Assembly: GCA_017410195.1 (NCBI GenBank)
Contig: JAFQRF010000020.1
Span: 1-43,147, forward strand
Origin: Clostridia bacterium
GTDB taxonomy: Bacteria > Bacillota > Clostridia > Oscillospirales > Acutalibacteraceae
DNA: 43,147 nucleotides
Reading direction: 5' to 3'
The notes beneath the pieces are model-generated. The model ran no database searches. It was not told the origin of the DNA and worked only from the letters and a program-made list of their open reading frames with translations. Of this stretch, positions 30,211 through 32,663 are shown in pieces. The translations under genes were made by a program, and so were the position numbers. Numbering within the stretch: position 1 is the first letter of the stretch; every line of letters starts with the position of its first letter.

Positions 30211-31230
30211 ATGAGTTATATTCAGTTTGATAAAACAAAGCCTCTTGATGTAATCCCCATTGGTCGAATTGCAATCGACTTTAATCCCACCGATATGAAT
30301 ATGCCGCTTTCCGAAAGCAGTAATTTCAATAAATATGTCGGCGGCTCACCTGCCAATATCGCTGTCGGTCTTGCAAGACTCGGAGCAAAGTGCGGCTTCA
30401 TCGCAAGAGTATCCGATGACCAATTCGGCGATTATGTTGAGAATTATTTCAAGAACGACGGAATTGACGTTTCCCACGTTTTCAGATGCGAAAACGGCGA
30501 GAATCTCGGTCTTACATTTACCGAAATCCTCAGCCCCACACAGAGCAGCATTCTTATGTACCGCGAGGGTGTTGCAGACCTTCAGGTTTGCGTTGACGAT
30601 GTTGACGAGGAATATATCAAGAGCGCAAAGGCTGTTGTAATTTCGGGTACGGCTCTCTGCGCAAGTCCTTCAAGAGAAGCCGCTCTCAAAACCCTTTTCC
30701 TTGCGAAGAAAAACGGCGTAGTTGTTATTTTCGATATCGACTACAGAAGCTACACCTGGAAGAATAAGGACGAAATTTCGCTCTATTATTCAATTGCTGC
30801 AAAGAACAGTGACATCGTTCTCGGTTCAAGAGAAGAATTTGACCTTACCGAAGCTGTTGAAGGCGTTTGCGCAAGCGACGAAGAATCGGCTGCACGCTGG
30901 TTCTCATACGGCAACAAGATTGTCATTATCAAGCACGGCAAGGAAGGCTCGGTTGCATATCTCAACGACGGCTCGGCTTATAAGGTGAAGCCCTTCCCCG
31001 TGAAGATGCTCAAGGGCTTCGGCGGCGGTGACGGCTACGCTTCGGCGTTCATCTATTCGCTTCTCAACGGCAAGAGTATTCCCGATGCGCTCGAATTCGC
31101 AACCGCATCCGCATCAATGCTCGTTTCGGCTCACAGCTGCTCGGCAGCTATGCCTTCTGCAGAAGCCGTTCAGGAGTTCATTGATAATATCAAACCTACA
31201 TCGGGCGAGGTTATCGAGAAAATAAAGTAA
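30211..31230 (+). CDS. iolC: 5-dehydro-2-deoxygluconokinase
   Basis: IolC phosphorylates 5-keto-2-deoxygluconate in inositol breakdown. The 339-residue PfkB-family kinase has the IolC-like stretches DVIPIGRIAIDFNP, YVGGSPANIAVGLARLG, SPTQSSILMYR and FDIDYRSYTWKNKDE. The anion-hole motif reads GGGD where many PfkB kinases have GAGD. ATG 30211 is 8 nt after AAAGGA; an ATG at 30202 overlaps that site. The earlier enzymes of the pathway are not in the window. Confidence 0.88.
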   Translation: MSYIQFDKTKPLDVIPIGRIAIDFNPTDMNMPLSESSNFNKYVGGSPANIAVGLARLGAKCGFIARVSDDQFGDYVENYFKNDGIDVSHVFRCENGENLGLTFTEILSPTQSSILMYREGVADLQVCVDDVDEEYIKSAKAVVISGTALCASPSREAALKTLFLAKKNGVVVIFDIDYRSYTWKNKDEISLYYSIAAKNSDIVLGSREEFDLTEAVEGVCASDEESAARWFSYGNKIVIIKHGKEGSVAYLNDGSAYKVKPFPVKMLKGFGGGDGYASAFIYSLLNGKSIPDALEFATASASMLVSAHSCSAAMPSAEAVQEFIDNIKPTSGEVIEKIK

Positions 31231-31238
31231 AATAAAAC

Positions 31239-31268
31239 GCAAGGGTCGATAAATACATTGACCCTTGC
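31239..31268 (+). terminator. Hairpin between iolC and tRNA-Arg
   Basis: GCAAGGGTC (31239-31247) and GACCCTTGC (31260-31268) form a 9-bp stem with a 12-nt loop. AAACAAATATTT follows instead of a T-run, so termination is uncertain; it may instead mark a processing point before the tRNA. Confidence 0.5.
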
Positions 31269-31280
31269 AAACAAATATTT

Positions 31281-31357
31281 CCGCCCGTGGCGCAGCAGGA
31301 TAACGCAGCAGATTCCGATTCTGAAGAACGGGGGTTCGAATCCCTTCGGGCGGGCCA
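31281..31357 (+). tRNA. tRNA-Arg (anticodon CCG)
   Basis: The 77-nt gene has a 7-bp acceptor stem CCGCCCG/CGGGCGG, discriminator G and an encoded CCA (31355-31357). The D-loop has GG followed by A20, and the anticodon loop TTCCGAT (31313-31319) gives CCG with C35; A20 and C35 are arginine identity bases. The T-loop is TTCGAAT. Two positions fail to pair (13-22 as C-A, 27-43 as G-A) and the T-stem has two G-T pairs. It reads the codon CGG. It lies 50 nt after iolC. Confidence 0.93.
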
Positions 31358-31481
31358 AACAGCGCCTCTTGCGAGGCTAAGATAAGAGATAATATTGAAT
31401 AAATAATAGATAATAGTGAACGTGAATTTTCGGGCGCTGTTTGTATTATTATCTATTCTTTATTATCTCTTATTTGTTATC
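31356..31481. repeat. Interleaved inverted repeats with 7-nt periodicity after tRNA-Arg
   Basis: Arm A CAAACAGCGCC (31356-31366, starting in the tRNA CCA) is an exact complement of A' GGCGCTGTTTG (31433-31443). Arm B ATAAGAGATAATA (31382-31394) is an exact complement of B' (31461-31473), and AATAGATAATA (31405-31415) of 31447-31457. Order A-B-A'-B' means the two stems interlock. Both B arms have a 7-nt period (31378-31426; 31447-31481). The capA ribosome binding site begins within 5 nt of the right end. Confidence 0.7.
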
Positions 31482-31499
31482 TGAAAGAAGGAAAACAAA

Positions 31500-32663
31500 A
31501 TGAAAAACAAATCAACTCTGGTTTTTACCGGTGATATCGGTTTTGACAGATATATGTACGGCAAGTGGGATGATGAGAAGCTTATTTCCGATGAAGTGCT
31601 TGATTTTCTTCACAGTGCTGACCATGTTATTGCGAATGTTGAGGGGCCTGTTGCACCGGTTGAACAGAACACGACAAAGGACGGCGTGCAGCAGCTTCTC
31701 CATACAATTGATCCCGAAGCTGTTAAGGTACTCAAAAAAATGAATGCCGATATCTGGAATATCTGCAACAACCATATCATGGACGCGGGCGAATACGGCA
31801 TAAGGACAACTCTTGAAATTGCCTCTGAGAAAGGCGTCAAGACCATCGGCGCGGGAATGGATATTCACGAAGCGAGAAAACCCGTTATTCTTGATGAAGC
31901 CGGCGGAATAGGCATGTTCGGTGTCGGATATCAGCGTGCTTGCAGAAAAGCCGATGAAAATAAGGCGGGATGCTACAGCTGGAGCGACCTTGACGAGATT
32001 CAGAATACCATAAACGAAATCAAAAAGACTTGCCGTTGGTGTGTAGTTGTTGCCCACGCAGGAGAGGAGTTTACTCCGCTTCCGTCGCCCTATACGAGAG
32101 AGCGTTACCGCCTGTATCTCGAAATGGGTGCTGATGTCGTTATCGGTCATCATCCTCACGTGCCGATGAATTATGAAACGGTAGGGGATAAGGTAATATT
32201 CTATTCGCTCGGTAATTTTATTTTTGATACAGATTATCAGCGTTCACAGTTCAACACTCAATTCGGTCTGCTTGTAAAGCTGAATTTTACCGAAACGGAA
32301 TTTTCGTGGGAGCCGATGGGACTCGAAATTCTCAGAGGACCCGAACATGTTGTAAAAGCGGAGCTGCCGAGAATTTTTGTTGATGTGCAGGAGGATGAAT
32401 TTAATCTTCTTTCACCGCTTTCGGCAAAAATGCACATTGCCGCAACGAAACGGCAGATGGCCTATCTCAACCCCGCACGATTTAAGGATGCAACAGAAGA
32501 AGAATGGGCGGAGCATTTTGCAGAGCCGCTCAGGACGGGCAGGGTGCCGGGTGAAACGCTTGATTTCTTTATTCTTGTTCCTCTTGCCGAAAAAGCAGAG
32601 GAAGGGGAGTGGAAAAAGAGCAAGCTCGAGGATGTCAAGCAGTATATTCTGGAGCAGATGTGA
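31500..32663 (+). CDS. CapA-family metallophosphoesterase-like protein
   Basis: The 387-residue protein matches the CapA/PgsA fold, a calcineurin-like domain: GDIGFDRY, NVEGPVAP, NNHIMDAG, VVVAHAGEE, GHHPHVP and YSLGNFIFD. Members take part in poly-gamma-glutamate or capsule metabolism, but many are of unknown role. There is no signal peptide or membrane anchor, so this copy is probably cytoplasmic, unlike classical CapA. No pgsB/pgsC-like genes are nearby. AAGAAGG lies 8 nt before the ATG, directly after the inverted-repeat region. Confidence 0.87.
   Translation: MKNKSTLVFTGDIGFDRYMYGKWDDEKLISDEVLDFLHSADHVIANVEGPVAPVEQNTTKDGVQQLLHTIDPEAVKVLKKMNADIWNICNNHIMDAGEYGIRTTLEIASEKGVKTIGAGMDIHEARKPVILDEAGGIGMFGVGYQRACRKADENKAGCYSWSDLDEIQNTINEIKKTCRWCVVVAHAGEEFTPLPSPYTRERYRLYLEMGADVVIGHHPHVPMNYETVGDKVIFYSLGNFIFDTDYQRSQFNTQFGLLVKLNFTETEFSWEPMGLEILRGPEHVVKAELPRIFVDVQEDEFNLLSPLSAKMHIAATKRQMAYLNPARFKDATEEEWAEHFAEPLRTGRVPGETLDFFILVPLAEKAEEGEWKKSKLEDVKQYILEQM

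Follow-up and report, generated by a model that had tools for sequence, protein, structure and literature searches.

Interlocking inverted repeats behind a tRNA-Arg gene of a Clostridia bacterium: a probable tRNA-linked relative of rRNA intervening sequences

The DNA analysed here (the window) is a stretch of 43,147 nucleotides from a Clostridia bacterium. Between a tRNA-Arg gene and capA it carries two inverted repeats, A/A' and B/B', whose arms alternate (Table 1). The CCA of the tRNA is the start of the element, with A overlapping the CCA annotated by ARAGORN. A and A' are complementary at 11 of 11 bp, and 66 nt separate the two arms. B and B' form a 36-nt stem with 81% complementarity that is made of 7-nt repeats, and this is the longest of the eight inverted-repeat pairs listed for the 43-kb window (at least 20 nt, at most 150 nt apart). 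The identity of B with itself at lag 7 is 0.69, compared with 0.22-0.44 at lags 4-6 and 8-11. A first-pass annotation of this DNA had described the same interleaved repeats, with A beginning inside the tRNA CCA and a register of B/B' that can slip by 7 nt. Its coordinates and matches were right, and B/B' turned out to be even larger. It did not contain the small hairpin h1, which A overlaps and continues into. Without B between them, A, h1, and A' would make up a normal terminator hairpin.

Table 1. Features of the tRNA-Arg to capA region in the window
Feature	Position	Strand	Basis or remark
tRNA-Arg(CCG)	31281..31357	+	ARAGORN; Rfam RF00005 match 31281-31354
A, 5' arm of helix 1: CA of CCA + AACAGCGCC	31356..31366	+	exact complement of A'; family covariation
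h1, small hairpin GCCTC-TTGC-GAGGC, putative tip of split terminator	31364..31377	+	5 pairs invariant in 21/21 genus copies
B, 5' arm of helix 2; GATAATA-type heptad repeats	31380..31415	+	complementarity, lag scores, compensatory differences between types
v, variable loop separating B from A'	31416..31432	+	alignment A1
A', 3' arm of helix 1	31433..31443	+	complementarity; CTGTTTG unchanged in 21 genus copies
B', 3' arm of helix 2, doubling as T-rich tract behind A'	31447..31482	+	complementarity, genus alignment
Short leader with ribosome-binding-site-like AGAAGGAAAA	31483..31499	+	by eye
capA, PGA_cap family (PF09587), E = 3.9e-52	31500..32663	+	occupies slot of IVP gene in many family members

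The start of capA is 17 nt past B' in the window. By consensus, no promoter-like site was found in 31150-31550, the interior of the element included, and a consensus scan for terminators with loops of 3-8 found none on the + strand of the same region. Rfam 15 was run on positions 31200-31700. The tRNA alone reached the cut-off, and the best other match over the element was mir-577 (24.6 bits vs 100). Sixteen relative loci gave tRNA and tmRNA matches only, and neither they nor the window had an Rfam match to a known riboswitch or T-box core. The statement that the layout belongs to no named RNA family is in line with these searches. The genome of the window (2.36 Mb, 88 contigs, 93.6% complete) was also searched for copies elsewhere, as had been proposed, and it has a single copy at E <= 0.001, the second match being the opposite strand of that copy.

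Of the 45 genomes of the genus, 43 matched the query at least in part, in many cases through the tRNA or capA alone. The element follows tRNA-Arg(ccg) in 10 of the 45 genomes, and the genus also has it after tRNA-Gln(ttg), after tRNA-Ala(cgc), and after CCA ends not belonging to an intact tRNA. Scanning the named genome collection with a pattern returned 15 stretches. All of them come from Clostridia or Oscillospiraceae MAGs, and a ruminant host is given in 13 of the 15 titles. A sequence-only model (R1) built from 21 genus copies (alignment A1) was used for the family search, and it matched 47 of 398 genomes and 29 of 135 genera (E <= 1e-4). Twelve of 291 genomes matched in a class-wide sample, from which 12 loci were read. 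Five are tRNA-linked copies outside the family of the window (L271, L273, L274, L282, L284), two follow a CCA without an annotated tRNA (L272, L288), and the other five do not have the layout. L272 and L282 are about 2.7 kb apart on one contig (G555:C102). One is behind an annotated tRNA-Ala and the other is behind a CCA end very similar in sequence, with a tRNA-like start directly after that end.

In total, 89 copies were read. The genus contributed 20 of them, and the other 69 were picked from the family matches, mostly those high in the list. An annotated tRNA or tmRNA is directly upstream of 63, another CCA precedes 17, and nine have no CCA. For the analyses below 11 copies were dropped, leaving 78. 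Five were look-alikes without a tRNA (L157, L159, L162, L168, L178), one had a coordinate failure (L174), and five had no CCA or an odd layout (L180, L140, L131b, L129, L165); L131b has both arms in place without a preceding CCA. Since nine of the 11 dropped copies have no CCA, the CCA start of all 78 is a product of selection. Counting also required the tRNA to read in the same direction, so that this orientation carries no evidential weight. ARAGORN found a tRNA (15 anticodons) or a tmRNA (3 cases, two confirmed by Rfam) in front of 62 of the 78 copies. The remaining 16 follow the CCA of no annotated gene, taken as the last CCA within a 38-base stretch, and several of these ends are a tRNA 3' fragment or the end of an island. 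A degenerate second copy in L035 (from position 1391) is a row in alignment A1 and is outside the 89. The five look-alikes are from one genome (G340), in which a longer repeat occurs in several copies with no adjoining tRNA. Moreover, intergenic B-like heptad stretches of about 37 nt were seen in L044-L054, mostly without a close partner arm and among other short repeats.

The order A-B-A'-B' is kept across the 78 copies. Helix 1 was scored with A as the 10 bases from the CA of CCA and A' located by best match. At least nine of the 10 pairs form between cognate arms in 63 of the 78 copies (49 of 62 with an annotated gene and 14 of 16 behind another CCA). The same score was reached in 232 of 3594 comparisons (6.5%) between non-cognate arms whose A differs at four or more bases, and in 18 of 1560 comparisons of A with shuffled mid regions. 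Examples of cognate pairs are CAAACAGCGC with GCGCTGTTTG, CAGAAACGCC with GGCGTTTCTG, and CAAAAGCGGC with GCCGCTTTTG. Among the 73 copies with at least eight pairs, 66 have an A' that ends in TG, facing the CA of CCA, and this bears out the link to the tRNA 3' end that had been suggested for the window. The 41 distinct A/A' pairs show two-sided changes at eight of 10 positions, a count that overstates the independent changes because A' was placed by best match and subtypes are shifted by one base. Within the genus A/A' is nearly uniform, and one copy (L016) has a full compensatory change.

For helix 2, the mean identity of B at lag 7 over the 78 copies is 0.67, and the remaining lags between 4 and 11 give 0.29-0.43. 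The duplex energy of B with its cognate B' is -29.0 kcal/mol vs -21.7 kcal/mol with the B' of other copies, and duplexes within a heptad type are stronger than those across types. In the genus alignment, 91.3% of the cells of the long hairpin are paired, vs 40.7-55.0% when one arm is slid by 1-3 columns. The hairpin has 28 two-sided changes vs 12.4 in shuffles; these are few independent events, since they mostly reflect one split between two types. Further pair types showed no excess over shuffles in this hairpin (203 of 500 shuffles reach the number), and the covariation term of RNAalifold for the genus set is only -0.6, with two-sided changes in two of 21 pairs. Judged from these alignments, both helices covary across the family, which is the result of looking for compensatory changes in relatives as had been advised. 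An element in L039 (826-941), located between an island junction and capA, is chimeric. It combines a B arm of type I with a B' arm of type II, and the hairpin that they form is weaker (-26.4 kcal/mol).

The RNA of positions 31356-31499 has a predicted folding energy of -46.9 kcal/mol (z = -6.4), and none of 200 shuffles was equally stable. In the best fold of this RNA, B and B' form a long hairpin whose 3' arm draws in A', and h1 stands before this hairpin. Folding was also done on RNA cut six bases past A'. In the best fold of this truncated RNA A/A' forms with at least six pairs in 50 of 63 copies, while the full RNA forms B/B' with at least 15 pairs in 63 of 63 copies and A/A' in 0 of 63. 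For the window, the truncated RNA is a near tie, slightly against A/A' (-21.4 vs -20.7 kcal/mol with A/A' enforced). The folded B/B' duplex has 17-36 pairs (28 in the window), and more when the bases of A' are included. The folding was nested and thus blind to pseudoknots. The first-pass annotation had proposed either two mutually exclusive stems or a large pseudoknot, and covariation and folding together agree with that pair of options.

In many copies the ORF after B' encodes a 23S rRNA-intervening sequence protein (IVP, PF05635; E = 7.5e-25 for one ORF scanned with Pfam), whose closest PDB chain is 2rld. An intact PF05635 gene begins within 120 nt downstream in 27 of the 78 copies, and a remnant or a match only to a profile built from these 27 was found in 12. 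No PF05635 was found in the other 39 over 900 nt read or to the contig end, nor was there a PF05635 match anywhere in the genome of the window (93.6% complete). A/A' has at least nine pairs in 31 of the 39 gene-less copies, 23 of the 27 with an IVP gene, and 9 of the 12 with a remnant. The view that the window holds a degenerate mobile repeat behind the tRNA was thus half right. It is a repeated element found behind tRNAs, but both helices are intact here and gene-less copies keep them about equally, which speaks against "degenerate". A special tie to capA was not borne out. capA is in the same layout in L006, L007, and L039, other downstream genes include an N6 methylase, short ORFs without a Pfam match, and an HTH gene, and PF05635 was the commonest downstream gene seen. 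As read from these copies, the full element is the CCA of a tRNA or tmRNA, followed by A, h1, B, v, A', B', a ribosome-binding site, and the PF05635 gene. Behind one copy (G003, L099 228-3245) there is an N6 DNA methylase (PF02384) with a 402-aa ORF that has no Pfam match, possibly a restriction-modification pair.

A tree of the 27 IVP proteins has no starred branch and is too poorly resolved for dating jumps between tRNAs. The 11 label changes on it were counted without a shuffle baseline and are given no weight. A tRNA or tmRNA is within 500 nt upstream of 11 of 30 PF05635 loci of the genus and four of 30 of the class. Several other arrangements were seen around PF05635 genes. A second layout has a tRNA or tmRNA, a plain terminator, an array of small hairpins with short repeated spacers (GTGAAAT, TGATAT, ATGATGT, GCTAAAT, and similar), and then PF05635 (L220, L225, L228, L231, L233, L234, L236, L237, L260, L268, L270). 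By eye, L222, L227, L265, and L238 have a non-interlocked order of intact terminator, two heptad arms, and PF05635 gene, and the first three of them are behind a tRNA or tRNA-like end. PF05635 genes away from tRNAs often have tandem heptamers ahead of them (by eye and lag score; L212, L216, L218, L224, L239, L240, L245, L259), very different in sequence, for example AATGCGG, GTAATTC, and AATGGCA. In L254 (G670:C1) the heptamers are GTTAGAA, and there are four equal-score matches in G670. The flank upstream of its PF05635 gene resembles 23S rRNA by eye, and we presume that this may be a classical intervening sequence (IVS).

Sites without the element were available for two tRNAs. Eighteen further tRNA-Arg(ccg) loci of the genus (L017-L034) do not have it, and 17 of them have a hairpin within a few bases past the CCA by eye; L029 stops at the contig edge. 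In the genus of G351, 21 of 22 genomes gave a match. Of 19 tRNA-Thr(GGT) loci read there, 17 are without the element, and they mostly have a plain terminator after the CCA by eye. At this tRNA G351 has the element with an IVP gene, and G446 has another subtype with an IVP-like start. The DNA past the IVP stop codon of G351 is a terminator like that of several element-free sites, and thus the element seems to stand between the CCA and what was the terminator before. We take this as a single good example and not as a rule, since terminators of that sequence are also found elsewhere in those genomes. The left edge of the element is the CCA, and its right edge varies between groups. We also searched the genus for a terminator of the same sequence without B. 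There were six hits in six genomes, each with two mismatches, and three of them overlap known element copies on the opposite strand (G004, G009, G030).

The cargo between tRNA-Arg and capA is variable, which raised the idea of integron-like attC cassettes. This was rejected, since att-like sites flank the islands and a large serine recombinase is encoded in one of them, which is about 19 kb long. The element itself is not the att site of the islands, since it is on the chromosomal side of their junctions. tRNA-Arg(ccg) is a target of such large-serine-recombinase islands (568 aa in L095, PF00239/PF07508), seen in L095 (582-2469), L096 (8007-8028 and 9654-9674; G010:C39), L104, and L101. At the far junction the islands read AATCCGTTATTAACAATCG-NN-CCA, and the arm of this junction recurs in inverted orientation at the near one. 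With at most one mismatch, the 19-base junction arm occurs at 19 places in 10 of the 45 genomes, and NN-CCA is next to it at 15.

The IVP gene invites comparison with the IVS elements of 23S rRNA. The available text of PMC4990558 describes a 428-nt 23S IVS with an S23p/IVP gene (PF05635) preceded by tandem heptamers, in which RNase III cuts the stem. It argues that this cut removes the ribosome-binding site of S23p and that the protein is probably not made, and it calls the function of both the IVS elements and the PF05635 protein unknown or unclear. In the part of PMC10053308 available, PF05635 is said to resemble the DGR accessory protein Avd. Reading of the loci, which is short of a dedicated search, brought up neither a reverse transcriptase nor a variable repeat close to the element. 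The element shares with the 23S IVS a PF05635 gene, a long inverted-repeat stem, tandem heptamers near the gene, and a location in the transcript of an abundant stable RNA. By analogy, RNase III cutting of the B/B' stem is plausible here as well. Unlike the 23S IVS, however, the element is behind the CCA ends of tRNA and tmRNA genes and not within a 23S rRNA gene, and its gene follows B', behind the hairpin, whereas the gene of the 23S IVS is in the loop of the stem. Moreover, it has a second helix, A/A', that is interlocked with the first and pairs into the CCA, and many of its copies are gene-less. Its ribosome-binding site is behind B' and outside the duplex, while the 23S IVS would lose its own by the cut, as argued in the same text of PMC4990558. 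Since the place and the gene position differ and the window copy is gene-less, the element falls outside the 23S IVS group. Searches of open-licence papers brought up no title or abstract start that describes PF05635 elements downstream of tRNA or tmRNA genes.

In part like intrinsic tRNA terminators, the element has a candidate hairpin, A-h1-A', followed by T-rich DNA, at the place where relatives carry a plain terminator by eye. It differs from them in that the stem is interrupted by B and the loop (about 50-60 nt) and that the T tract doubles as an arm of a second helix. Terminator/antiterminator leaders have two exclusive helices, one of them terminator-like, ahead of a gene, and the element shares this arrangement. 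Unlike those leaders, we know of no ligand or leader peptide for the element. Furthermore, its competing arm is downstream of the terminator, so that it could act only after read-through.

Taken together, these sequence comparisons indicate that the feature is very probably a tRNA-linked relative of the rRNA IVS/IVP elements, and that the window has an orphan copy with capA in the IVP slot. What the two helices do is less certain. An orphan tRNA/tmRNA-tail element with a split terminator that refolds is the explanation we favor, with a probability of about one half. A chance match of low-complexity DNA was considered because B/B' is A+T-rich, and its likelihood is next to nil given the folding z of -6.4 and the recurrence at CCA ends across the family; the relatives refute it. 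It is improbable that the region is a simple composite, in which a tRNA terminator was broken by heptads that grew by slippage and whose arms match through template switching, with no selection on the RNA. The strong period of 7 and the B-like repeats without an obvious partner elsewhere would fit, but A/A' contains no heptads and still tracks its partner across subtypes, and the order A-B-A'-B' recurs across families.

Two other readings were considered. The structure might matter as DNA, as one terminus of a mobile unit that resembles an IVS or a MITE and whose arms are sites for a mobilising enzyme at tRNA CCA ends, with effects on the transcript incidental. The patchy occurrence among many kinds of tRNA and many genera, the CCA junction in most copies, the type I/type II chimera, and the intact arms of the 39 copies without an IVP gene in the DNA read all agree with this reading. 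However, no target duplication was noticed in the loci as read, which is short of a systematic search, and no enzyme is tied to the element. The pairing of A' with the tRNA-derived CA and the terminator look of A-h1-A' suit an RNA role better, and we regard a purely DNA-level unit as rather unlikely. Alternatively, tRNA 3' processing might be blocked or guided by a true pseudoknot in which both helices are formed at once. That both helices covary and that h1 supplies a linker between A and B would allow it, yet short linkers would hardly span a B/B' helix of 17-36 pairs, and in the best fold the long hairpin takes up the bases of A' in its 3' arm. A pseudoknot thus seems a shade less probable even than the composite.

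In the favored split-terminator explanation, A-h1-A' would be the intrinsic terminator of the tRNA with B held in its loop, and the T-rich start of B' would serve as the U tract. The A/A' stem is present, and the T-rich tract behind A' is interrupted. Polymerases that stop there would release a short precursor of the tRNA. Those that continue past this point would make B', which would capture B, open A/A', and form the long duplex. RNase III might then cut the B/B' duplex, a step proposed from the stem of the 23S IVS in the available text of PMC4990558. This would yield an mRNA whose ribosome-binding site is free, and a tRNA precursor that is then trimmed to the CCA. Since read-through, refolding, and the RNase III cut would free this mRNA, the downstream gene (IVP, or capA in the window) could live off the tRNA promoter. 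The sequence of steps, from termination or read-through through refolding and cutting to translation, is modeled and tentative, with a likelihood at or somewhat under that of the explanation as a whole. That the IVP protein helps the element to spread is speculation.

It is possible, if doubtful, that these copies represent a new class of selfish elements parked on tRNA and tmRNA genes. In such a class, a split self-refolding terminator would replace the old one, read-through would yield a processing stem, and the tRNA promoter would power the PF05635 gene. The 23S IVS and the elements described here would then be two branches of one family of heptad repeats and IVP genes, and the conserved RNA, and not only the protein, would be its mobile or functional core. 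The many tRNA kinds and the tmRNA that serve as hosts, together with protein-bearing and protein-less copies, provide natural comparisons, namely sites with and without the element, orphan and full copies, and interlocked and non-interlocked forms. The element suggests that a refolding switch can replace a tRNA terminator and so couple a tRNA transcript to a neighbouring protein gene.
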